DNA from: Edaphochlamys debaryana
Taxonomy: Eukaryota; Chlorophyta; Chlorophyceae; Chlamydomonadales
Assembly (NCBI GenBank): GCA_016858145.1
Contig: JAEHOE010000019.1
Location: 620,001-684,000 of the forward strand
DNA length: 64,000 bases
Direction of reading: 5' to 3'
Shown: one piece after another, positions 22,801-57,696 of the stretch
How positions within the stretch are numbered: position 1 is the first letter of the stretch
How the letters are laid out: each line of letters starts with the position of its first letter
Program-made: the position numbers and the translations under genes
Notes under the pieces: generated by a model
What the model saw: the letters and a program-made list of their open reading frames with translations, nothing else
Database searches by the model: none
Told to the model about the DNA's origin: nothing

Positions 22801-23970
22801 GAAGAAGCACCCTGCTGAGCGAACAACCGTCCTGCCCTTGGGTGCTTCTGGGTGCTTCTGGGTGCTTCTGGGTGCTTCTGGGTGCTTCTGGGTGCTTTTG
22901 GGTAGGTGCGGCGGGTTGGGGGGTGGAATCCGCAGATTCGGCCCAAGGCCCAGACACAGTGGGTCTGTGCAGGTGAAGGCGGCAACCAGTGAAACTCTTG
23001 GGGTGGGTAAGAGCTAGGTAGCCGAGGAGGGACGCACGCAGCTGAGCAAACCTTACCTGCTGCTGCTCAAGCCGCCACCTGCTTGCTGCCACGTCATGCG
23101 CCACCACGGCCAGCCGCATGCCGTCCCGCAGCTCCACGTCCTCAACGTCCAGAGCCGTGTCAGGGCATTCCGCCAGTTGCAGGAGCTTGGACGGCTGCTG
23201 GTCCACAGGCAGCACGTACCGGTAGCCCCGCAGCATGCTCAGCAGCTGGCTCCTGGTCAGCTGCTTGTGGTCCCGCCTGATGTAGGTCGATCCGCCCGGC
23301 AGGAAGAGCACCAGATTGCTGTATACGCGTTCTTGACCTGGTGGAGACAAGGGTGATAGGGTGAGAGGGGCGCGGTGATCCGAGAGGGGCGAGCGTACCT
23401 TGACAGAAGCCCGCGAGTCTTCTGCCCTCTCAAACGCCCACCTCCTCTCCCCTCCCCTCCCCTCCCCTCCCCTCCCCTCCCCTCCCCTCCCCTCCCCTCC
23501 CCTCCCCTCCCCTCCCCTCCCCCTCCCCTCCCCTCCCCCTCCCCTCCCCTCCCCTCCCCTCCCCTCCCCTCCCCTCCCCTCCCCTCCCCTCCCCTCCCCT
23601 CCCCTCCCCTCCCCTCCCCTCCCCTCCCCTCCCCTCCCCTCCCCTCCCTCCCCTCCCCTCCCCTCCCTCCACCACAAGGTTCCTCTCCCGGAACCGTCGC
23701 TCACTCACGCAAGGTGGGGCGGCTGTGGAACGGTCCGCCTTCGCCGTTGAGAACGGCTACGCTAAACCCCATGTATGGTCATCCGTGCTCCAACGTACCC
23801 TGGCACCGATCTAGGATGAGCCGGTAAATGGTCTTGTCCTCGTCGCGGTCCTCCAGTTTCCAAGACGCGAGCTCTTCCTCCGAAACTCTGCCGACAAACG
23901 ACAGGAGCTTGCCCTTCGTTTCGAGAGGCCCTGCTCGCACAGCCTTGTAAGCCCGTGCCCTGGAAATCAT
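19827..23970 (-). CDS. Unrecognised multi-exon protein gene
   Basis: Exons on the minus strand that read convincingly: 23970-23799 (ATG start), 23337-23057, 22660-22594, about 22459-22291, 22169-21830 and one starting at 21697. All junctions are phase-consistent, except that the start of the fourth exon is uncertain: the obvious CAG acceptor at 22467 is out of phase, whereas a GAG acceptor seven bases further in is in phase. The early part contains EEELASWKLEDRDEDKTIYR, VLPVDQQPSKLLQL and ELRDGMRLAVVAHDV. Later exons contain CFRKLRGLVEGLPVQVEI and MKPLEVFLMADGWADDPDE. Downstream the frame turns Ala/Gly/Glu-rich, and a strongly basic segment (FKSRGKKVGKSKLTK) ends at a stop at 19827. Exon borders below 21.6 kb are not resolved. 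I recognise no family; the basic tail suggests nucleic-acid binding at most. Introns 1 and 2 hold microsatellites. Confidence 0.5.
22840..22899. repeat. Six tandem copies of a 10-bp unit (GGGTGCTTCT)
   Basis: Six head-to-tail units, the last one with a single change, inside the second intron of the unrecognised 19.8-24.0 kb gene. Confidence 0.9.
23441..23671. repeat. (CCCCT)n microsatellite, about 230 bp
   Basis: Nearly uninterrupted CCCCT pentamers, with a few CCCCCT and CCCT variants, form a pure pyrimidine plus strand. The tract lies in the first intron of the minus-strand unrecognised gene, so the transcript carries the purine strand. Confidence 0.95.
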
Positions 23971-32855: not shown

Positions 32856-42319
<9,464 letters not shown>

Positions 42320-43380
42320 GCAGCGGCGGCGGGTTGCGGCCGGGCCACGCCGGCGGGCTGCAGATGGCGCCGTCTTGCGGGGTGTATGGGGGGTGGGGGT
42401 CTCATTGCACTGGGGAGGGAAAGCGGAGGAGGCTGGAGCGCGGGGGCGGGCGCGGGGTTGTGCGGATCACACCGGTGCCGCGCGTGCTCTCGTGGTGTGT
42501 TTGGGACTGGGGAGGGCCTCTCTGGCGGAGGTTTGAAATCGAACGGCGGCTGCAGGCGGCCGTAGGGCTGCGCCGCTTGGGGCTGCCTGGCATGAGGGGC
42601 TCGTGGCCCACACATGGCGCCCTAGGAGAACGAGTACGGCTGGGCTGGACTGCCCTGGGCTGGTGCTTGGACAGGGTGTCGATGAGGGGGCCAGCCTTAG
42701 CGGGCGGTCGGTGGGGGGGCCAGGGGCTCCTGCGGGGCAGGGCCTCATGGATACGTTAGGAGGGTGGCGGAAGCGGTTGGTAATGATAGCCGACGCGAGC
42801 GCTTGCGTTACAATAGCCGGCCGGAAGGAAAGGAAGGTTTCGGCGCGGGGGGCGGTTGGACTGGGAAGGTGGCCGCGCGGGGCAGGACGAGGGGTGAGGC
42901 GTGAGACCAGGTCCTTCTCTCTGTGCACCGTGGCTGTTGAGGTTGTGAGGAGGACAAGCGGTGTCTTAGAGGTTAGAGTCCCCGTCGGTACTGTAGGACT
43001 GCCGGTCGTGCCGTTGCATGGGCAAGTGCGGGCCGCCACACCCCATGGCCTGCAGCTGGCTCGCTGGTTGATGCGGGGTTGCATGGACCCACGGCAGCCG
43101 GGGCTGACACTTGAGGCGAGACGTGGCGCAGATCATGTGCCCAGGGTGTTACAGTTGCTTGATGTACGTGTTGGTGGTCCCCTGAGTGAGAGCTACGGCT
43201 CTTTGCCTGCTATGTGCGGGTATGGGCGCTATGTACATGCACGGCTATCCACGCTCTATCTGAGCCTTCTGGCGCCAGGCGTCCCTATTACTCCTTCGCG
43301 CTACTGCATGGCTCTGTCATCTGCGACTGTAGCCTTCCGCAGCCCGCAACTCGTGGCAATATAGCGAAGCCAAGGTGGGA
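42320..43380. other. Intergenic region 3' of DHX16
   Basis: 3' flank of DHX16 on one side and of the minus-strand inverted-repeat gene on the other. A TGTAA motif on the minus strand (plus 43149-43153) is the best poly(A) candidate for the latter. No exon is supported. Confidence 0.45.
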
Positions 43381-46068
43381 TGCAGGGCCTGACTGCCGGG
43401 GGAATGCAAACCCTCCGGGCCTCCAGGCCTTGTGCCTCATTAACACCACGACGTCACGACCCAGCGCCCGCTCTTCCCCGCCACGGTGCCGGTGCAGATC
43501 AGTGAGCAGCCCTCGATGGACAGCGAGACCGACAGGATGCCCGGGTAGCCAATGCTGCACGCCTGGCCGCCCGCCGCGATGTCGCAGGTACCGAGCTTGA
43601 TCTCTCCGATCCAGGGCACCTTGACGTACACGCTGACGTTGCAGTGGGGCGGGAGGAGGTCCACCATGCCCGCAATGCGCAGGGGCCCTAGCGTGTAGTC
43701 GAAGGGCGTGCCGGCGACCTGCCGTGGGGGCCGAGGCACGGCAGAGGCGGCAGGGGTCAGGTGGGGAGAAAGGGAAGTCGACCAGCCAGTACCGGTAGGC
43801 CAAGAGGCACCCAACATGAGTTGGCAGCACAGCTCAGGAAGGGGGGGTCACTGGGGCCGGACCCTGACGCTGCAGGCCCCTGCCCCATCCAAAGCCGCCG
43901 TAACAATCAGCCCGCCGGCTGGTACGCAGCCAAAGCTCCCGATGCCCGCCCGCTGGCCCACACACCTGTACGGCAGCCGTGGCGCGTACGGCCTGCGGGG
44001 GCCACTCGCCGTACACGATGCTGTACGCCGCCACCGCCTTGGCCATCTCCTCGGTGAACTCGGGGGGGGGCGCGTGCCAGTGCTCCGCCGCCTCCAGGGC
44101 CTTCACCGGGTCGTACCAGTCGATGTGGGTGCCGTTGGCATCCTTCGTCAGCTTCCAGCGGCTGTTGCCGCCATACACACCGCTCCTGTACGCCACCTGC
44201 TCGTTGTCCTTGAAGGCGTACAGGTCGTACCACACGTACTCGCAGGGGAGGTACACCACGGCGCCGGGGGCGACCGTCCGGGTGCAGATGTCGGTGAGCG
44301 CCCACCGCAGCGTGATGGCGAGCGTGTCATCGGTCTGGTTGCTGACCAGCACCCGGGTGGATGCCTGGGTCGTGATTGGCCCGTCACCGGCGGCGGCCAG
44401 GGGGACAACCGCGGCCTGAGGGGCAGAAGGGGAGGGCGAGGGAGGTGCAGGAGGCAGGTGGGGGCGCAAGAGGGGGCGGAAAGGACCGGCGATGCGGGGT
44501 ACGTGTGCTTGATGCATGTATGAATACTGCAGCCAGGCCAGAGCCAGGCAGCGAGGACTCTGAGCGACGCGCTCAGACAAGGTAACACGCGACCGCAACT
44601 GCAGCGCTACCTGCTACAATAATGTATCGGTCGACGCTTGGTTGCTACGCTCCACATGAGCCCCGTCATTGTTAGCAGCTTGCTGGTCTCGGACAGAGCT
44701 CGCGGCCCGGCCATCGCTCTGAACCCCCAAAATTACGTAGCCCCGATATCAAGGCCCTGGCTGTCACACGTAATAAGCTTCATGCACATGCTATGGATAC
44801 AGCTACTCTGCGCTGTGGGGGGCTAGTCGCGGGCGCCAACTCAGTTCACGATGTAGTACGAAGCCTTCGACGACAGCTGGCCAGTTTACGGGTTCGCGTA
44901 CGCGACTTCGTCCCCGTCGCCTCAGCTCTCGCACTAGCTATATATGTCACGCACGGGCTTCTGCTGAGGGTGTCTGGGTCAGCCGGGGTACGCACGGACC
45001 CGTCTGGGTCAGCCCGCATGACATGTCCCCCCCAGGCTGTCGGTAGCTGTCCGTGTCAGCGCGTCGAACCGCCCTCGCACACAACTGGACAGCTGTGGCC
45101 ACGGTCGCCCGAGATGCCTGACTGAAAGGCTCACAGCCCGTTCCCGTGGACGCGAGAAGATTCGTGGAGGGCAACCTTGCTCGCAGGCTGCTGATACCAA
45201 CACAGTACGTAACATCCCCCACCCCCACCCCCTCGGCCTCATACCTTGCGGGACGGGCGTGTCGCAAGGCGTGTCAGCGAGGCACGGTACGGCTTGTTGG
45301 TGGTCTTTGCCAGTGCCTGCTAGGGATAGCGGCGGACAGCAGCAGGAGGGCAGGGAGGGCGGAGGGAGGAGGATAAGGGGTGGGTGATAGATGGGGGGAC
45401 CGCATTCCGTGTATGTGGGGGACTGGCCAGAAGCACGGGCAACCCGCCGGGCCCGTGCGCTGTTTTGCGACGTGTCAGTATCTGGGCGACGTAGCACCGT
45501 AACCAGATAACGGCTCCCGTCAACCCCGCGGTTGCTCACCAGAGGCTTGGCGGTGGCCGAGGCCGTAGGGTGGCCAGTCCGCGTTGGGGCTGCACAGGTG
45601 ACCATGCGGCTGCTGGGTCCCACCGCACGAGAGCGGCGAGACAGCAGCCCAGCAGGGCGAGCGGCGGGACGGTGGCAGAGCATGGTGCAAGGGAGCGCGT
45701 GCCAGGGGCTGGTGCAAGAGGAGAAGCAATTGTGTGGGTTTGGTGAAGTGGGCTTGACCTGCGCCTTAAATAGCTCCAGAGGGCGGACGCAGGACCGGAC
45801 GCAGTGCACGGCAAGGCCGGCCTAGAAGCCGTCAGAAGCGACGACGGGCACGCCCCGAGTAATCCTTTCGCACGTGGACGACAAGCGTCCGTCGAAGGAC
45901 CCAACTCGTACACACCGCACGCGCCAGCTGACAACGGGCACCTCCCAAGCAGGGGCAGCCCGTGTTCCGCACGACCTGCCTGGATCGCAGTGGGCAGTGT
46001 GCCAGCCTGGTGTCCAGGACAGGCACCACCCTCTAACTGCCGGCATGCATCCGCCAGGTGGTGAGTTG
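43381..46068 (+). repeat. Left arm of a giant inverted repeat
   Basis: About 2.69 kb that recurs in inverted orientation at 46133-48838. Similarity begins about 60 bp past the stop codon of the left gene and runs, with scattered substitutions and small indels, through all exons, introns and the 5' flank to within 32 bp of the centre at about 46100. Confidence 0.93.
43440..45683 (-). CDS. Unknown, probably chloroplast-targeted protein, copy A
   Basis: Three exons on the minus strand: 45683-45540, 44415-43966 and 43718-43440 (873 nt, 290 aa). Exon 1 encodes MLCHRPAARPAGLLSRRSRA followed by a Ser/Arg/Ala-rich stretch with RMVTCAAPTR, a typical algal chloroplast transit peptide. The mature part starts near AAVVPLAAAGDG and looks beta-rich: QTDDTLAITLRWALTD, LPCEYVWYDLYAFKDN, GGNSRWKLTKDANG, then a Cys-rich C-terminal domain (HCNVSVYVKVPWIGEIKLG, GTCDI, QACSIGYPG, GCSLICTG, ending SWC). 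I recognise no family. The first intron (about 1.1 kb) is unusually long for this window and contains an open frame conserved between copies only because the whole intron is duplicated. Copy B lies head-to-head 826 bp away. The poly(A) motif TGTAA (plus 43149-43153) lies outside the duplicated arm. Confidence 0.75.
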
Positions 46069-46509
46069 CCAGGGAGCTGCTTGGGCCAACGCAGGCAATT
46101 AGTCTTGGGGCGTCTATCCGGCCTCTATCTGACAACTCACCACCTGGCCGATGCCGGCAGTTGGAGGGTGGTGCCTGTCCTGGACACCAGGCTGGCACAC
46201 TGCCCACTGCCATCCAGGTCGTGCGGAACACGGGCTGCCCCTGCTTGGGAGGTGCCCGTTGCCAGCTGGCGCGTGCGGTGTGTACGAGTTGGGTCCTTCG
46301 ACGGACGCTTGTCGTCCACGTGCAACCGAGTGACTCGGGGCGTGCCCGTCGTCGCTTCTGACGGCTTCTAGGCCGGCCTTGCCGTGGACTGCGTCCCGTC
46401 CTGCCCCCGCCCTCTGGAGCTATTTGAGGCGAAGGTCAAGCCCACTTCACCAAACCCACACAATTGCTTCTCCTCTTGCACCAGCCCCTGACACGCGCTC
46501 CCTTGCACC
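45684..46509. promoter_or_regulatory. Shared, palindromic promoter region of copies A and B
   Basis: The 826 bp between the two divergent start codons are themselves palindromic except for the central spacer 46069-46132. Copy A has a TATA-like TATTTAAG about 85 bases before its ATG (plus 45765-45772). At the mirrored site copy B reads TATTTGAG (46421-46428). Transcripts of the two genes would be complementary only if they ran through into the other arm. Confidence 0.55.
46069..46132. other. Central spacer of the inverted repeat
   Basis: 64 bp of unique sequence between the inner arm ends, which read GGTGAGTTG on the left and CAACTCACC on the right. Confidence 0.85.
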
Positions 46510-48838
46510 ATGCTCTGCCACCGTCCCGCCGCTCGCCCTGCTGGGCTGCTGTCTCGCCGCTCTCGTGCGGTGGGACCCAGCAGCCGCATGGTCACCTGTG
46601 CAGCGCCAACGCGGACTGGCCACGCTACGGCCTCGGCCACCGCCAAGCCTCTGGTGAGCAACAGCGGCGTTGACGGGAGCCGCTGTCAAGTTACGTCGTT
46701 AAGTCGCCCAGACACCGACACGTCCAAGAGCTGCGCACGGGTCCGGCGGGTCGCCCGTGCTTTTGGCCATTCCCCCACATACACGGAATGCGGTCCCCCC
46801 ATCTGTCACCCGCCCCTCATCCTCCTCCGTCCGCCCTCCCTGCCCTCCTGCTGCTGTCCACCGCTATCCCTAGCAGGCACTGGCCAAGACCACCAACAAG
46901 CCGCACCGTGCCTCGCTGACACACCTTGCGACACGCCCGTCCCGCAAGGTATGAGGCCGAGAGGGTTGTGTGTTACGTACTGTGTTGGTATCAGCAGCCT
47001 GCGAGCAAGGTTGCCCGCCACGAATCTTCTCGCGTCCACGGGAACGGGCTGTGAGCCTTTCAGTCAGGCATCTCGGGCAACCGTGGCCACAGCTGTCCAG
47101 TTGTGTGCGAGGGCGATTCGACGCGCTGACACGGACAGCTACCGACAGCCTGGGGGGGACATGTCATGCGGGCTGACACCCGTGCGCACCCCGGCTGACC
47201 CAGACACCCTCAGCAGAAGCCCGTGCGTGAGCTTCATAGCTAGTGCGCGAGCTGAGGCCACGGGGGCGGAGTCATATGACGCGAACTCGTTGGCGCAAAC
47301 TGGCCAGCTGTCGTCGAAGGCTTCGTACTACATCGTGAACTGAGTTGGCGCCCGCGACTAGCCCCCCACAGCGCAGAGTAGCTGTATCCATAGCATGTGC
47401 ATGAAGCTTATTACGTGTGACAGCCAGGGCCTTGATATCGGGGCTACGTAATTTTGGGGGTTCAGAGCGATGGCCGGGCCGCGAGCTCTGTCCGAGACCA
47501 GCAAGCTGCTAACAATGACGGGGCTCATGTGGAGCGTAGCAACCAAGCGTCGACCGATACATTATTGTAGCAGGTAGCGCTGCAGTTGCGGTCGCGTGTT
47601 ACCTTGTCTGAGCGCATCGCTCAGAGTCCTCGTTGCCTGGCTCTGGCCTGACTGTAGAAGTTATGCATGCATCAAGCACACGTATCCCGCATCGCCGGTC
47701 CTTTCCGCCCTCCGCGTCGGCCCCGTCGTGCCCTTAACCCCGCCCCCTCTTGCGCCCCCTCTTGCCTCCTGCACCTCCCTCGCCCTCCCCTTCTGCCCCT
47801 CAGGCCGCGGTTGTCCCCCTGGCCGCCGCCGGCGACGGGCCGATCACGACCCAGGCATCCACCCGGGTGCTGGTCAGCAACCAGACTGATGACACGCTCG
47901 CCATCACGCTGCGGTGGGCCCTCACCGACATCTGCACCCGGACGGTCGCCCCCGGCACCGTGGTGTACCTCCCCTGCGAGTACGTGTGGTACGACCTGTA
48001 CGCCTTCAAGGACAACGAGCAGGTGGCGTACAGGAGCGGTGTGTATGGCGGCAACAGCCGCTGGAAGCTGACGAAGGATGCCAACGGCACCCACATTGAC
48101 TGGTACGACCCGGTGAAGGCCCTGGAGGCGGCGGAGCACTGGCACGCGCCTCCCCCCGAGTTCACCGAGGAGATGGCCAAGGCGGTGGCGGCGTACAGCA
48201 TCGTGTACGGCGAGTGGCCCCCGCAGGCCGTACGCGCCACGGCTGCCGTACAGGTGTGTGAGCCAGCGGGCGGGCATCGGGAGCTTTGGCTGCGTACCAG
48301 CCGGCGGGCTGATTGTTACGGCGGCTTTGGATGGGGCAGGGGCCTGCAGCGTCAGGGTCCGGCCCCAGTGACCCCCCCTTCCTGAGCTGTGCTGCCAACT
48401 CATGCTGGGTGCCTCTTGGCTTACCGGTACTGGCTGGTCGACTTCCCTTTCTCCCCACCTGACCCCTGCCGCCTCTGCCGTGCCTCGGCCCCCACGGCAG
48501 GTCGCCGGCACGCCGTTCGACTACACGCTGGGGCCCCTGCGCATTGCGGGCATGGTGGACCTCCTCCCGCCCCACTGCAACGTCAGCGTGTACGTCAAGG
48601 TGCCCTGGATCGGAGAGATCAAGCTCGGTACCTGCGACATCGCGGCGGGCGGCCAGGCGTGCAGCATTGGCTACCCGGGCATCCTGTCGGTCTCGCTGTC
48701 CATCGAGGGCTGCTCGCTGATCTGCACCGGCACCGTGGCGGGGAAGAGCGGGCGCTGGGTCGTGACGTCGTGGTGTTAATGAGGCACAAGGCCCGGAGGC
48801 CTGGAGGGTGTGCAAGCCCACAGTCAGGCTGCACTCCT
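46133..48838 (-). repeat. Right arm of the giant inverted repeat
   Basis: Mirror copy of 43381-46068, about 2.7 kb, colinear over its full length. Differences are single substitutions and short indels, mostly in the long intron and flanks. Confidence 0.93.
46510..48779 (+). CDS. Unknown, probably chloroplast-targeted protein, copy B
   Basis: Three exons: 46510-46653, 47804-48253 and 48501-48779 (873 nt, 290 aa), with the same splice sites as copy A. By reading, the proteins differ at only about two positions: GHATAS here against GHPTAS in the transit peptide, and APGTVV against APGAVV in exon 2. Both copies are intact, with no stop or frameshift. Function is unknown. The mature part is beta-rich and has at least six Cys in its last 92 residues, so a disulphide-bonded or metal-binding small domain is possible. 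The stop is followed by about 60 bp of duplicated sequence, then unique DNA. The nearest TGTAA (49307-49311) is 530 bases downstream and outside the arm, so the two copies have unrelated 3' ends. Confidence 0.75.
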
Positions 48839-50274
48839 GGCCGCTGGCCGCACGGGCTGGCGAGGGCCGCCGGGATGCCGTGTTCCCAGATGGGGCGCGT
48901 GATGATCTAATATACTTGGTGACGTCCTGCTGTAGAGCGCTCCTTGCACATAACGGCACATAACGGCGGAGGGGGAAGCGCGAAGCGACCTCGGGGCGGC
49001 AATGGCGGCGGACGGGGCAGGGCGTCCCGAGGAGAGAGCACGGCGCCGCCCGCAAGCAAGCGGCGCGGCGCTGAGCGATGGCGGCCTGGGCAGGGGAGCA
49101 GCGCACGGAGCGGCGTTGCCTGGCCTACAGACGCTACAGTAGCCCAAAGCTGCTGTGCTTGAGAGCCTGTTGCTTTGATAAACTGACCTCGGTTATGGGG
49201 TCCGGCGGATTGGGGTTGTAGGCACACGACCCCAGACAATTTGTTGTGGTTCACTGGACACATTACCCACGGCCCGTACGGGAGTTCACGGCTGATACCA
49301 TGCCCGTGTAACAACAACAACAAAAGCCCTTATTCGGGATGGACGTCGCGCACTAGTTGTCGCTCACGGCATAGCCAACACCTGAGGCTGTGTTCTGTAA
49401 AATGCACCGTCCCCCGAAGGCCCGAACTGCGCCATCGCCAACCCACTACCTAGCACACCATACGCAGCGCCAGCCTGGCCCATCTATTGCTGGGTTCCGG
49501 CAACGTGCCATCGAGCAAGTGGTCCCATCAACGCATTCCAGCATCCGCCGGGCAGCTCGCTACCTTGTGATCCGCCGTCTTCAGTTGTTGGTGCACCACC
49601 TGGAGTCTATGCGAAAAACAGCAACGGAGGCCCCGGTCAACTCTCAGCAAGCCCAAGCCATGTTGTCAGCACCAGCCAGGGCCGCCACTTGCAACTTTGT
49701 GATGATGCATGCGCTATCCACCCTCGGCCTCGCTCTACACCGGCACAGCTCTACTTCGTCAGCAGCAACAGCATGCCGGTTACTCTAGCGTAGCCGTTCT
49801 CAGCCGCATCCCCGACTTCATCTGCGCGTACCGCTCCGCGTAGTGCTAGATAGCCCTGTTGCTAGTGCACTGCATGGAGGCTATGCCCTCCGACCCTCGG
49901 CCTCGCCCTTGACTCTCCAACCCGCAGCCTCCCTGGCAGCCCGCTCCTCCTACCTGTTACACCCTCTACCCGTTACATACCGGTACATCCTCCCTGCAGT
50001 TCGCCAATCATGCCCTCCGGCTTCACACTCCTTGGCTGCAGCCTCCTTGCGCGCCTCCTGGTGTTGCGACATTGTGTTTATTTTGGAAGAGGAAGCTACT
50101 TCGCTACTACGCTACTTCGTGCTCTACATATACTCATGGTTCTGGGGATAGGACTGCTGCCCCCGCGGGTTCGCCCACTTGCCTGACACGACTGCCCCCG
50201 CGGGTTCGCCCACTAGGTATACAGAACGTCCAGTGTCTGTATACCTGCCCGCTGGCTCCAACACCAGCCTGCAA
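48839..50274. other. Intergenic region
   Basis: No exon is supported. It holds the probable TGTAA signal of copy B (49307-49311) and two TGTAA motifs on the minus strand (plus 49957-49961 and 49973-49977) that suit the minus-strand gene starting at 51818. A 23-bp segment beginning CTGCCCCCGCGGGTTCG is directly repeated at about 50156 and 50199. Confidence 0.4.
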
Positions 50275-52124: not shown

Positions 52125-55100
52125 CTAGAGCGGCCCGCGATACACCACCTCGCCCTCCGCGGAAGCCGCCAGAAAAGGATGCACAACAGACACACGGTCC
52201 CACTGGGGGGGAGGAAGCTGCAGGGCAGCAAAGCCCCGAAGGCGGGCCCAAAAATCAGCGACAGCAAGAGCAGATACGCGGGCAAGGACCCCCGCAGAGA
52301 CAACAGGAGCACGAACCCCATGAAGGACAGGCCGTGACGCAAACAGGGACCGCCGCCCACACTCCATAGCGGACACGGCAGCAAGCACAACAACATCCCA
52401 AACCACGGACGACAGCCCAGGGGGGCAGGCGGCAAGCCACAACTGAAAGGGAGTAACTGGAGCCCCAACAGTCGCCGAGAGGACAGAGACGACACCATGC
52501 GCGACAGGGCAGCCCCAAAAGTGATGCCAGCGGGCAGAGCCCCTCCCCGAGGGATCGACCATGGGGGCGCCACACGCACACACAGGCGGGACCAGTGCGC
52601 GCGCATGCAAGGGGAACGCGGGGAAGCCATCGAGGGCCAGCCGCCAGAGGGCTTCCTTGTGACAGTTGTCCCACTTGAGCGCCCAGAGACGAGACAGAGT
52701 AGACTGGAGGGTGGCGAGGGCGAGGGCCACCGGGGGAGTGAGGGCCGCCGGGGCGCCAAGGCCGGCAGGCGGGGGCGGGAGCAGCGCAAGGGAGGAGCAG
52801 AAGGCGACATGGCGGGCCCGCAGGGCAGCCCGGGCCGGGCCCAGCTGGAGGGACGTGGCAATCTTGACTGTAAGGGCGCCAAGGGAGACGGCGGTGCCGC
52901 CAGGGAGGCGCCACCCAAGCGAGCGAATGAGGCGGGCACAGGCATCCGCAGTGGACGAGGGGGGGCCAACCCCCGGGGAGGCAGCCGCAGCCCGAGTTGC
53001 GGCCACCCATGCGGGCGGGATGCACGTGAACACGAGCTGAAGGGACGGGAGGCCCGTGTCGAAGGCGCGGAGCGGAAGGGGCAGGGCGGAGAGGGGGAGG
53101 GCGAGGGCGTCCAAGAGGCGCTGGCGATAGGAGGCGGCGACAGCAAGCCGGTACGGAGGGCACGCATGGAGCGGGGCGGCACCAGCCCACTGCGCGGCGA
53201 GAGGCGCCATCGCATCCCACGTCCGCACCGCGTCCGCGACGGTGGCGAAGCCACGGACCGAGCGCCAGAGCGGGCAGCGCTGCTCCAGGCCGCAGCCCGC
53301 CGCGTCCGCCAGGAAGGGGTTGCCGAAGAGCGGGGCAGCCGCACACCACGGCCCCGCAGCAGGCGCCGAGAGAGAGCGGATGGGCGGGAGGAAGGAGAAG
53401 GCGCGGACGAGCTGCCGAAGGGCCGGGGACGACGGGAGGGGCAGCTTGCCGAGGCGGTAGACGGCGGGCCGGGGCCCCCCCACGGGCGGCGGGGAGGGGC
53501 GGCCAGCCGTGAGGAGGCATAAGGGGTGGAACTGAGGGTGGAGGCGGCGGAGGAGCGCGTGCGCCACGGGGATCCAGAGCGGCCGGGTGCGCAGCAAGCC
53601 GGGAACGCTGCCCAGCACGCAGCGAGCGGCGGCGACAGCATGGCGAGCCCGGACGTGCTCGGGGAGGGGCAGGAGGCCCATGCCGCCGGCGGCAGGGGGG
53701 AGGGCCAGGGAGGCGTGGCCCAGGCCGACCAGCCAGGCGTGGGGGCGGGCAGCATGGGCGGCGGGGGTGGAGCGCCGGTCGACCAGCGCGGCGGTGAAGC
53801 GCACGAGGTCGGCGAGGGCAGCGCCAGCGGGGAGGCCAAGGAACTCCGCGAGGTACAGGAGCTTGCTAAGGCCGTACCCAGAAGCGGCGAAGGCACGGCC
53901 AAAGGCGGAGAGGGGGAGGGCGGCGACCAGCGTGTAGGCTCGCCAGACACCAGCGAGGCGGCCAGGCCAGGGGGAGGGGGCGCCGGGGCCGCTGGGGAAC
54001 GGGACACCCAGCGCCACAGCCGACGCGACGACGCGTGGGGGAGGCGCGGGCGGGGCGGACGGGATGGGCGGGGGGGCAGGTGGGAGGACGCCGGCGGGGA
54101 CGGGGGGAGGAGGCGGCGGGGTCCTCGCACCGCGGCCACGGGAGGTGGGCGACGGTGAGCGGCGGCGGCGGCGGGACGGGGGAGGGGCGGCAGGGGCCGG
54201 GGCGGCCACAGCAGGGGCCGCCGCAGGGGCCGCAGGCAGCGGGGGAGGGGGAGCGGGTGCACCAACACAGAGGTACTTGACCTTGTCCAGATTCAGCCGC
54301 TGCCCCGACGCTGCCCCAAAGGTGTCCATGTGGGCGAGGAAGGCGGGGATGGCCGCCAGGGAGGGGAGGACGGGCTGGCCGTCGTCAGCGTACTGGGCTG
54401 CAGTGATGGTGAGGCCGTCAAGGGTGATGCCAACGTGGTTGGACTTGAGCCACGAGAGGAGCGCCTGGGCAATAAAGAGGTATAGCAGGGGGGAGAGAGG
54501 GCAGCCCTGCCGGACGCCGGCGGCAATGGGGACGGGGGCAGAGGTGTAGCCGTTGACCAGGGCGGACGAGCGGGCCCCAGCCAGCAGGGTCCACGCCCAG
54601 GACAGGAGGCCAGGGCCGGCCCCAGTGGTGGCCATGGCGGCGAGGAGGAAGCCGCGATCAATGGTGTCGTACGCCTTGTAGAAGTCCAGGAACGCGACCA
54701 CGGCGGAGCCGCCGGACGCAGCGAGGAGCTCGGGCAGGAGTTGCAGGAGCAAGACATTGTCGGCAATGAGCCGGTCCGGGAGGTAGGCGGTTTGCTCTGG
54801 GTCCAAGCAGGCCCCAAGGAGGGGCGACAGGCGGCGACTCAGGACGCGGGCAAGGGTGCGGTAGTCGGTGTCCAGGAGGGTGATGGGGCGATAGTTGGCG
54901 GCGTCGGCAGGATCCGGGGGACGGGCGGGGTCGGGGCCGGCCTTGGGGAGGCTGACGATAACGCCGTCGAGGAAGCCAGCTGGCAGAGCGCCTGTGGCGC
55001 CAATGGCGGAGAAGAGGCGGGCGAGGATGGGAGAGAAGGTGCCGGAGAAGCTGTGATACAGGCCAGGCAGGAGCCCGTCCCGCCCAGGAGAGGCGGCGGG

Positions 55101-56627
55101 GCGAGCGGCCGCCAGCGAGGCGGCGACCTCGTCGGCGGAGACAAGGAAGGAGCCGGCAGCCGCCGCCCCCGCCGGGTCCAGGCGAACCCCGGAGGCCTGC
55201 AGCGCCGCAAGGACCTGGGCACGGGCGCCGGGATTGGGGGCGGGCGCCGAGCAGACGCGCTGCCAGAAGGCAGCGACCACTGCAGGGAGCCGGCGGGGGT
55301 CGGTCACGTAGGTGCCGTCGGGGCAGCGCAGGGCGGTGACAGGGGGGGCGGCAGCGTGGGGACGCAGGTGCTGGGTGATGGCGGGGGAGGGGCGCTCCCC
55401 CGTGCCCAGCCAGGCATGGTGGGTACGCCGGGCAAGGCGCGTGGCGCCGGCAGCTGCAGCTGCGGCGGCGGCGCCGTGGGCCGCCACAGCGGCAGGGACA
55501 GCAGCTGCGTCGCCCGCCTCCACGGCGGCGAAGGCAGCCTCAGCCACCGCACGAGCGGCAGCTTCAGCATCGGAGGCAGCCAGGCGGCGGGAGCGGGCTT
55601 GGTCGTTGAGGGCACGAGCGGTGGCGGCGACAGCCCGCTTGAAGGAAGGCCACCAGAGGAGCAAGGCGCTGTCGGCGACGGGGGCCGCCGCGACCGCGGG
55701 GGCAAGCCAGGCTTGGAAGGCGTCGACCAGGTCGGGGTGATCAAGAAAGTACAGGCGCGTGCGGCGCAGTCCGGGGCCGAGCGGCGGGGCCGCAGGGGAA
55801 GGGCGAAGGCGGCAGACAAGGAGCCGGTGGTCAGAGGCGCTGCCCGGAGCCGTGCCGCAGGCCGGCAGGAAGGGGAGGAGGGCTGCGGAGGCGTGGAAGC
55901 GGTCGAGGCGGGAGCCAGAAGCGCCGCGGACGCAGGTGTAGACACGGCGGGAGGGGTGAAGAAGGCGGAACACATCACCCAGGCCGGGGCAGGCAGCACC
56001 GAAGGCGGCGGCCGTGCGCACGTCAGGCGCGCGTCCTCCGGCGCCGGCCGTGCTGTCCAGGGCGGGGGAGCAGACGAAGTTGAAGTCACCAGCCCAGAGA
56101 TGGAGCCCCGGGCCCTGGGCAAGGGGCTGAAGGCGGTCTGCAATGAAGGCGCGCTGCAGGGTGGGTTTGCCGCTGGGCAGGTAGGCGGAGAGGAGGCGCA
56201 CGGTGTGGCCCCCCCAGGAGACGGGGAGGTGGAGGAGGCGCCCATCCGGGGAGGCGACAGGAGCGGCCGCCCCCCCGGGGAAGGTGAGCGCGCCGGTGGT
56301 GAGCAGGGATCGCCGAATCAGGATGGCAGTGCCCCCGGAGAAATTATTCGGAGCAGGCGCCCAGAAGGCGTGCCAGAGGCCGCAGTGCAGGCTGGAGGCG
56401 ACGGCACCCAGGGCCGTCGCGGCAGCGGCTTGGGCAGAGGCGGGAATCCACGTTTCCTGGAGGCAGACAATGTCCAGGCGCTGCCGATGCCAGAGGAGAG
56501 CGTGCCGTGCCAGCTGGGTGGGGGGCCCATGCAGCCCGCCGGGCCCAAGGAGCCCGCGCACATTGTGGGAGCCAACCCGCAAGGGGCGAGCCGCGCGGGG
56601 CGCGGCGGGGGGCGCGGCTTGCGCCAT
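52125..56627 (-). CDS. LINE ORF2: AP endonuclease and reverse transcriptase
   Basis: One uninterrupted 1500-codon frame. Residues about 15-270 are an APE-type endonuclease: SHNVRGL, LQETW, LWAGDFNFV, SRLDRFH, SDHRLLV. Residues about 520-800 are a reverse transcriptase: VIVSLPKAG, NYRPITLLDTDYR, FLDFYKAYDTIDR, GVRQGCPLSPLLY and the catalytic QYADD box near residue 746. Near residue 1360 a CACGAP...HHFWGC cluster resembles the zf-RVT element found in plant and algal LINEs. The protein nicks target DNA and copies the element RNA from the nick (target-primed reverse transcription). The ATG overlaps the ORF1 stop in a TAATG, suggesting coupled re-initiation. All catalytic motifs are intact, so the copy may be young. 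Confidence 0.93.
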   Translation of the reverse strand: MAQAAPPAAPRAARPLRVGSHNVRGLLGPGGLHGPPTQLARHALLWHRQRLDIVCLQETWIPASAQAAAATALGAVASSLHCGLWHAFWAPAPNNFSGGTAILIRRSLLTTGALTFPGGAAAPVASPDGRLLHLPVSWGGHTVRLLSAYLPSGKPTLQRAFIADRLQPLAQGPGLHLWAGDFNFVCSPALDSTAGAGGRAPDVRTAAAFGAACPGLGDVFRLLHPSRRVYTCVRGASGSRLDRFHASAALLPFLPACGTAPGSASDHRLLVCRLRPSPAAPPLGPGLRRTRLYFLDHPDLVDAFQAWLAPAVAAAPVADSALLLWWPSFKRAVAATARALNDQARSRRLAASDAEAAARAVAEAAFAAVEAGDAAAVPAAVAAHGAAAAAAAAGATRLARRTHHAWLGTGERPSPAITQHLRPHAAAPPVTALRCPDGTYVTDPRRLPAVVAAFWQRVCSAPAPNPGARAQVLAALQASGVRLDPAGAAAAGSFLVSADEVAASLAAARPAASPGRDGLLPGLYHSFSGTFSPILARLFSAIGATGALPAGFLDGVIVSLPKAGPDPARPPDPADAANYRPITLLDTDYRTLARVLSRRLSPLLGACLDPEQTAYLPDRLIADNVLLLQLLPELLAASGGSAVVAFLDFYKAYDTIDRGFLLAAMATTGAGPGLLSWAWTLLAGARSSALVNGYTSAPVPIAAGVRQGCPLSPLLYLFIAQALLSWLKSNHVGITLDGLTITAAQYADDGQPVLPSLAAIPAFLAHMDTFGAASGQRLNLDKVKYLCVGAPAPPPPLPAAPAAAPAVAAPAPAAPPPSRRRRRSPSPTSRGRGARTPPPPPPVPAGVLPPAPPPIPSAPPAPPPRVVASAVALGVPFPSGPGAPSPWPGRLAGVWRAYTLVAALPLSAFGRAFAASGYGLSKLLYLAEFLGLPAGAALADLVRFTAALVDRRSTPAAHAARPHAWLVGLGHASLALPPAAGGMGLLPLPEHVRARHAVAAARCVLGSVPGLLRTRPLWIPVAHALLRRLHPQFHPLCLLTAGRPSPPPVGGPRPAVYRLGKLPLPSSPALRQLVRAFSFLPPIRSLSAPAAGPWCAAAPLFGNPFLADAAGCGLEQRCPLWRSVRGFATVADAVRTWDAMAPLAAQWAGAAPLHACPPYRLAVAASYRQRLLDALALPLSALPLPLRAFDTGLPSLQLVFTCIPPAWVAATRAAAASPGVGPPSSTADACARLIRSLGWRLPGGTAVSLGALTVKIATSLQLGPARAALRARHVAFCSSLALLPPPPAGLGAPAALTPPVALALATLQSTLSRLWALKWDNCHKEALWRLALDGFPAFPLHARALVPPVCACGAPMVDPSGRGSARWHHFWGCPVAHGVVSVLSATVGAPVTPFQLWLAACPPGLSSVVWDVVVLAAVSAMECGRRSLFASRPVLHGVRAPVVSAGVLARVSALAVADFWARLRGFAALQLPPPQWDRVSVVHPFLAASAEGEVVYRGPL

Positions 56628-57696
56628 TAGACCGTGGGGTCGGGGGGAGCCGGGGAGGGCCCGCCACGTTGCCCAGCGCAGGGTGTGTCCGCCATCGTGG
56701 TGTCACCAGCGGAGTCCGCGGCGCCTGCAGCAGCGGGGGGCCCCGTGGGGGCGGCCGCGGGCGGCGCGGCGCGCGCGCGCTTGGGGTCGGGGGCAAGCGG
56801 GAGCCCCCTCGCCGCGTCGGGGGCGGCCACCGCGAGCAGGGAGGCCAGGAGGAGGGGATCCGCCCCAGTGTCCACCGCCATGGGCTCCTGCGGGTCGCCG
56901 GGCAGGGGGCCGGCCGGGCCGGGGGGCGCACCCAGGGCCAGGGCCGCAGGGCCAGGGGCAGCCGCAGCCGCCCCGCCGCGTCCCTCACCGCTGCCGCCGG
57001 CGGCACTGCCGCCGCTCGCCGCCGCCGCCGCTGCCGCCGCGGCCGCAGCCCCCGCCTCCGCCGCGGCCTCCGCCGCCGCCACCGCCGTCTGCCGCTGGAC
57101 CAAGGCAAACGCCGCCTCCTGCGCGGCGTCGGCCACGACCGCCGGGTCCTGCCCGGGCTCCGCCGCTGCCACCGTCGCCCACGTCGGCACGCCCGCCGCC
57201 GGAGCCGCCGGGGCTGCCCGGGCCGCCGGAGCCGCCGGGGCTGCCCGGGCCGCCGGCGCCGCCTCCATCGCCAGGTACTCATCATGGGAGATGCAGTAGC
57301 ACTCGAGGAGCTCGTCGGGGCAGCCCTCAGTGACTAGCGCCAGAGTGAAGGAGGTCTCCCCAGGGCCGAGGCCGAGGTCCGTGCCAGCGGGAACCAGGGC
57401 GCAGTAGCGGTCGCCGTAGCAGCCGCCGGACAGCAGATCACGAAACGGGATGACCGAAAGCACGTCGGGGATGGCGGCGCGCAGCTGGGAGAGGGCGCCA
57501 ACGACGGTAGTCGCAGCGTGCCATCCCGCCGTGTAGATGCCGAACGGGGGGTCGGGTAGCGGGCGGACCGGGAGGCAGGCGGCCAGAGTGCCGCGGGAGG
57601 CGAGGAAGCGGATGACGGGGGCGGCGGCCAGGAAGGCCCGACCATCCGCCGACAGCTCATTGTGTCGTTACAACAGCTGTGCGGCAAGGCTCGGCA
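56627..57696 (-). pseudogene. LINE ORF1, interrupted near its start
   Basis: The frame starts at an ATG at 57696 (MPSLAAQLL), meets an in-frame TAA at 57670-57668, then stays open to the TAA at 56629. It contains FGIYTAGWHAATTVVGALSQ and VIPFRDLLSGGCYGDRY, followed by a long Ala/Gly/Pro-rich stretch. No zinc knuckle or coiled coil is obvious. No in-frame ATG follows the early stop for about 130 codons, so ORF1 is probably not made as a full product, unless the element starts differently (for example by splicing). ORF1 products of such elements normally bind the element RNA; that role is inferred from position only. Confidence 0.6.

Follow-up and report, generated by a model that had tools for sequence, protein, structure and literature searches.

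A head-to-head gene palindrome in Edaphochlamys debaryana and a sister cluster sharing its mirrored promoter

Inverted gene pairs and the palindrome on contig 19

Divergent pairs of near-identical genes have been described in Caenorhabditis. In the Caenorhabditis elegans pair F44E5.4/F44E5.5, arms of about 2.2 kb are separated by a spacer of 126 bp (Zhao et al. 2007, PMC1803023). Gene conversion is named as one mechanism for pairs of this kind, and the authors argue for selection on the structure (PMC1803023). The arms of the human Y palindrome P6 are also homogenised by conversion, with a mean tract of about 2 kb (Hallast et al. 2013, PMC3723533). Here we describe a palindrome from the green alga Edaphochlamys debaryana, found in a window of 64 kb, i.e. 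bases 620001-684000 of contig 19 (C19) of the 141.9-Mb genome. A left arm (L) and a right arm (R) carry mirror-image genes on the two sides of a short spacer; positions are those of the window unless they are marked C19. The Caenorhabditis inverted paralogue pairs are the closest described case that we found, and the locus adds a green alga to that kind. Among the literature matches listed, no paper described the locus in its title or at the start of its abstract.

In a gapped alignment built from the centre outward, 99 of the 2659 aligned sites are mismatched and 8 gaps occur, which corresponds to 96.3% identity between the two arms. The repeat finder resolved the structure into six nested inverted blocks of 68 to 1080 nt (90-99% identity) covering 43400-48819, and reported no other inverted repeats of at least 60 nt in the window. 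Going outward, the identity is 95.1% from the centre to the TATA-like box, 98.6% in exon 1, 94.5% in intron 1, 98.4% in exon 2, 98.8% in intron 2, 98.9% in exon 3 and 88.2% in 48779-48829. The outer flanks of L and R are unlike each other. Folding of the central 301 nt as a single DNA strand gave z = -24.5 relative to 100 shuffles. A sequence-only reading of the window had proposed arms of about 2.7 kb around this spacer; the alignment bears this out, and the likeness is found in introns and promoter as well as in exons. The palindrome is real: a nuclear gene has been duplicated in inverted orientation.

The features shared with the inverted paralogue pairs of Caenorhabditis are the near-identical mirrored genes, including the intergenic DNA, and the short spacer. 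The arms are somewhat longer here (2.7 kb versus about 2.2 kb) and the spacer is shorter (64 bp versus 126 bp).

The sister cluster and its mirrored promoter

A protein search of the genome, in which the best candidates were scored, located the gene family at four places, all on contig 19. Besides L and R, these are the two tandem units A1 and A2, which share one orientation and occupy the region around 521-526 kb, approximately 140 kb from L/R. The public protein models of the family are HYH03_005602 (the L copy), HYH03_005574 and HYH03_005573. In each A unit, a spacer separates the gene's own promoter half (g) from a mirrored one (i), which stops at a position equal to window 46408-46409, just ahead of the mirrored TATA-like box; no further family exon was found past the i halves. 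The new feature here is a sister cluster in which the mirrored promoter occurs without the second gene.

Promoter halves belonging to different groups (L/R, A g, A1i and A2i) differ by 26-32%. Within pairs the difference is 5.3% for L/R and 1.9% for A1g/A2g, whereas it is 31% for A1i/A2i. The spacers were compared as well. In the same orientation, the score of the window spacer against each of the A-cluster spacers A1c1, A2c1 and A2c2 was reached by 0/300 shuffles, and in reverse orientation against A2c2 by 5/300. The A1c1 and A2c1 spacers were more weakly similar to A2c2 (5/300 and 1/300 shuffles, respectively). As the A units possess this mirrored promoter without the second gene, it seems to be older than the present arms. 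Judged by the divergence of its halves, it seems to be about as old as the split between the clusters, and the present likeness of the arms seems to be young.

As described for Caenorhabditis, the mirrored structure outlasts sequence drift and further copies share the mirrored intergenic part (PMC1803023). Here, further copies likewise share the mirrored part, and a mirrored structure with diverged sequence is observed between the two clusters of one genome, whereas in Caenorhabditis the structure was seen in three species. Unlike the Caenorhabditis pairs as described there, the other cluster of E. debaryana has the mirrored promoter alone, without a second gene.

Some further features of the A cluster were recorded. 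Exon 3 of A1 (about C19:521033-521313) has a one-base gap relative to the other three copies, and HYH03_005573 is without part of that exon. Beyond A2, at C19:528083-528457, there is an extra, partly permuted mirrored promoter piece with halves about 76% alike. Beside the cluster, at C19:533469-538991, there are additional tandem repeats spaced about 1.23 kb apart, whose longer matches are 94-98% alike.

Likeness and origin of the arms

The differences between L and R are patchily distributed. They affect 98 of 2645 compared sites, and the longest run free of differences comprises 322 sites, a result obtained in 1 of 10,000 random placements. The run sits in intron 1, within the segment 47280-47803. 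As this segment is just 58-61% alike between the window copies and A1/A2, constraint is a poor explanation of the run. In bins of 100 alignment columns, identity is 100% from 47308 to 47608 and 87-88% at 46624-46824 and 47208-47308.

In the A cluster the likeness is bounded. Over the gene and the promoter half belonging to it, A1 and A2 are 97.5% identical (64/2557 sites differ); the values are 71.9% for the inverted half (85/302 differ) and 73.8% for the 3' flank (149/569 differ). The homogenised stretch is distinct from both by Fisher's test (P 4e-48 and 1e-67, respectively). One boundary is the palindrome centre, with near-identity carrying on across the spacer until the inverted half begins, and the other is the stop codon. 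The arms in the window are bounded at almost the same points. As there are two pairs only, the shared ends may be a coincidence, or they may be a consequence of selection on the gene.

Within pairs, the differences at fourfold degenerate sites and in introns agree, being 9/179 and 64/1355 for R-L and 4/169 and 48/1327 for A1-A2. Between the clusters (R-A2) we counted 10/115 at fourfold sites of exons 1 and 2, 5/45 at those of exon 3, and 461/1272 in the introns. The far smaller difference at fourfold sites than in introns may reflect a past exchange between clusters that was limited to the exons, or constraint combined with poor intron alignment.

Taken together, the patchiness of L/R and the bounded A1/A2 stretch point to gene conversion, and indirectly indicate the exchange between copies that is a mark of inverted paralogue pairs kept alike by conversion. 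The homogenised stretches measure about 2.6-2.7 kb, compared with a mean tract of about 2 kb in P6. In the Y study the palindrome arms were more than 99.9% alike and conversion events were tallied over 378 chromosomes (PMC3723533), whereas in E. debaryana we infer it from one assembly with arms 96.3% alike. The duplication had been read as either recent or maintained by conversion. Both may apply, as R resembles a copy of L, on moderate evidence, and the identity is patchier than a single copying event gives.

The 3' flanks were used for judging which arm is older. The L flank aligns with the A2 flank over about 180 bp with a score of 33.5, which was reached by 0/1000 shuffles (maximum 26.0) and by 0/318 controls (maximum 28.0). 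For these controls, 200 random draws were made, 41 in the range of the A cluster were skipped, and the 159 left were each compared in both orientations. The aligned part includes the motif TGTAA, which has been described for Chlamydomonas as the principal signal for cleavage and polyadenylation (PMC3439250). The R flank matches the A2 flank at chance level (348/1000 shuffles). Because the L flank matches the A2 3' flank including TGTAA and the R flank does not, L is probably the parent and R a copy ending approximately 50 bp past the stop codon; our confidence in this direction is moderate.

The explanation that we prefer, and regard as probable, is growth of the palindrome from an old, short mirrored promoter, with R copied from L and conversion afterwards. 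The short mirrored promoter, common to all four copies, would have been the starting point. The mirror half beside L would then have been lengthened when the entire gene, with some 50 bp beyond its stop codon, was copied there to give R, and arm-to-arm gene conversion would since have kept L and R alike. A similar process may have homogenised the tandem units A1 and A2 between palindrome centre and stop codon. Mechanistically, the inverted promoter could fold back and be prone to breaks or template switching near the centre, and repair would then copy the neighbouring gene from its paralogue. A more speculative extension, which we put forward tentatively, is that the mirrored promoter acts as a recombination module, i.e. 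that its fold-back or break-prone centre repeatedly lets the adjacent gene be overwritten from centre to stop. Such a module would explain the common start of the L/R arms and the A1/A2 stretch at the centre, as well as their termination at the stop codon or some 50 bp beyond it.

Several observations weigh against growth by copying and conversion. The direction from L to R is drawn mainly from one alignment of about 180 bp, and in a second control, which set the A2 flank against random stretches of the window, 1 of 600 comparisons also scored 33.5, the next reaching 27.0; this lone match is probably the L flank itself. Similarity to the A1 flank is weak for L (30/1000 shuffles reach the score, 2/300 in another test) and also for R (9/1000, and 42/300 in another test). 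The R flank has no homology to the sequence past the A1/A2 inverted halves (616-957 shuffles out of 1000 score as high), so that the addition of a gene to a mirror half is not confirmed from the R side. Changes between L and R, when polarised, are evenly distributed (33 in L, 30 in R and 35 ambiguous). Furthermore, the end of the A1/A2 tract at the centre is not razor sharp, as the spacer is 88% alike by count (14/117 differ, with many gaps), and conversion is deduced from patchiness in one assembly of one strain.

Among the alternatives, an ancient full palindrome survives best, and we consider it unlikely. The head-to-head pair would then predate the split of the clusters, the A cluster would have lost its second gene, and conversion would have kept the window pair alike. 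An old mirror agrees with the A1/A2 mirrored halves, which differ by 31% mutually and by 26-30% from L/R, similar to the 30-32% between the promoters of the clusters, and with the spacers of both clusters being alike in the same orientation. It is difficult to reconcile with this that both A units end at the same point before the mirrored TATA-like box, without any further family exon found, and that the R flank lacks the match to the A2 flank that L has. The order of the promoter halves was also tried as a decider and was rejected. In an unrooted tree all A halves are placed opposite L/R (support 100) and A1i joins A1g/A2g (support 81). Among site patterns with two states, 18 set all A halves against L/R and 17 set the two g halves against the rest. 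Tree and site patterns favour neither growth of the palindrome nor an ancient one.

A simple recent inverted duplication without conversion, the uneven identity being due to chance or uneven mutation, is improbable. The 322-site run (1/10,000) argues against it, as do A1 and A2, which are alike in the gene and own promoter half and unlike on both sides, even though the overall divergence of L and R is modest (3.7%) and their intron and fourfold divergences agree (0.047 and 0.050).

A functional idea, compatible with the explanations above, is that RNA read through the centre would fold, feed a Dicer enzyme and silence the family; the sequence-only reading had proposed the hairpin as a substrate for Dicer-type small-RNA production. 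We found no positive evidence for such a hairpin and rate it as very unlikely. Both predicted promoters, judged from TATA-like boxes and frames, face away from the centre. As both genes face outward, their own transcripts do not cross it, and read-through from a neighbour would be needed; the left neighbour, on the + strand, does read towards the palindrome. The genome contains Piwi domain matches, of which three out of four exceed the cut-off, and two RNase III domain matches, which are no proof of Dicer. In Chlamydomonas reinhardtii, introns and untranslated regions of mRNAs are sources of small RNAs made by DCL3 (PMC4817775). The palindrome resembles the DCL3-dependent precursors described there in having inverted sequence that is foldable if transcribed through, and differs from them in having no predicted transcript across the centre. 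The open frames and the few replacement changes between L and R fit a role as protein, and scanning 42000-50000 against Rfam yielded no matches.

Fold-back chimaeras are a known fault in long-read data. An assembly artefact produced by such reads is hardly credible here: instead of arms differing by read error alone and flanked alike at both ends, we found arms separated by 99 mismatches and 8 gaps, distinct outer flanks and a separate, diverged palindromic centre in the A cluster, and the PacBio Sequel library, sheared to about 20 kb and size-selected at 15-50 kb (assembly depth 40-49x over three species, with Illumina correction; PMC8226300), should give reads long enough to span 5.5 kb.

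A DNA transposon with terminal inverted repeats was also considered. The dispersed genome copies expected of one were not found; DNA searches with 43300-44300 and 44300-46100, best candidates being scored, gave matches only on contig 19, in the window and the A cluster.

Gene models, neighbourhood and meaning of the locus

The coordinates of the features are collected in Table 1. Three exons per copy, as had been proposed, are backed by open frames, splice borders and paralogues, and the public models of A1/A2 share exon 1. The part that did not agree is the start of the public L model HYH03_005602, which has a different first exon, placed inside intron 1 by our reading of the sequence. For this reason exon 1 rests on conservation rather than on transcripts. 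Owing to the one-base change in its TATA-like box (CTATTTGAGG versus CTATTTAAGG), R may be the weaker copy. L and R probably share a promoter region from which both are expressed in divergent directions.

Table 1. Positions of palindrome and gene features in the window
Feature	Position	Strand	Basis
Left arm (L), probable parent copy, public model HYH03_005602	43387..46072	-	repeat finding, arm alignment, flank test
Right arm (R), probable copy	46129..48829	+	repeat finding, arm alignment, flank test
Central spacer, 64 bp	46069..46132		arm alignment; A-cluster spacers similar in same orientation
Palindromic promoter core, mirrored form also in A cluster	45781..46420		comparison with A1/A2
Exon 1, L copy	45540..45683	-	mirrors R exon 1; A1/A2 public models use same exon from inner ATG
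Exon 2, L copy	43966..44415	-	alignment, paralogues
Exon 3 with stop codon, L copy	43440..43718	-	open frames, paralogues
Exon 1, R copy	46510..46653	+	paralogue comparison
Exon 2, R copy	47804..48253	+	paralogues
Exon 3 with stop codon, R copy	48501..48779	+	open frames, paralogues
TATA-like box, L copy, sense CTATTTAAGG	45764..45773	-	read in sequence; aligned with CTATATAAGG of A1 and A2
TATA-like box, R copy, CTATTTGAGG, one base different	46420..46429	+	sequence, alignment
TGTAA motif (candidate poly(A) signal), L 3' flank	43149..43153	-	aligned with TGTAA of A1 and A2

Summed over the three exons, L and R differ by 10 synonymous changes in 223.7 sites and by 2 replacement changes in 646.3 sites. 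Codons with a gap or stop were excluded from all codon counts, and the codon with the one-base gap in exon 3 of A1 was therefore dropped. The small number of replacement relative to synonymous differences suggests that L and R are both still under purifying selection. One difference in the protein is found in APG(A/T)VVYLP, where L has A and R has T. Between the clusters, replacement divergence (dN) is about 0.13 and synonymous divergence (dS) 0.18-0.22 in exon 3; in exon 2 the values are 0.012-0.018 and 0.10-0.13. By these estimates, the C-terminal part of the family is evolving much faster.

Neither long frame of the L copy matched a Pfam family at E (expectation) values up to 1, and the best match in a PDB sequence search had only E 1.6. 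No relatives outside Edaphochlamys, and three Edaphochlamys protein clusters only, were found among 5141 and 7997 scored candidates; this search needs shared five-residue words, and with 7997 candidates only the best-sharing ones were scored, so distant relatives can be missed. An AlphaFold model built from three sequences had a mean pLDDT (predicted local distance difference test) of 36 and was not usable for function. The gene, of unknown function, appears so far to occur only in E. debaryana.

On the left, helicase-like exons with HA2_N and OB_NTP_bind matches occupy 39878-42181 on the + strand, perhaps from about 36.6 kb, and we read the neighbour as a probable gene for a DEAH-type RNA helicase. 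No domain matches were obtained for two more frames, at 36.6 and 38.7 kb. This gene ends near the palindrome and is convergent with the L copy. On the other side, at 52125-57463 on the - strand, there is a retrotransposon resembling a long interspersed nuclear element (LINE), with a 1500-residue frame carrying an endonuclease domain (Exo_endo_phos) and a reverse transcriptase domain (RVT_1); a frame of 278 residues, without Pfam match, precedes it. A tandem CCTCC repeat of about 45 copies is found at 23441-23667, adjoining a stretch of strong GC (guanine-cytosine) skew.

With this locus, a green alga joins the organisms having inverted gene pairs that look conversion-maintained. Four copies in two clusters, a mirrored promoter with and without the second gene, and recurring tract ends make it a natural test case. 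If it is true that the mirrored promoter drives exchange, promoter architecture would be linked to concerted evolution.

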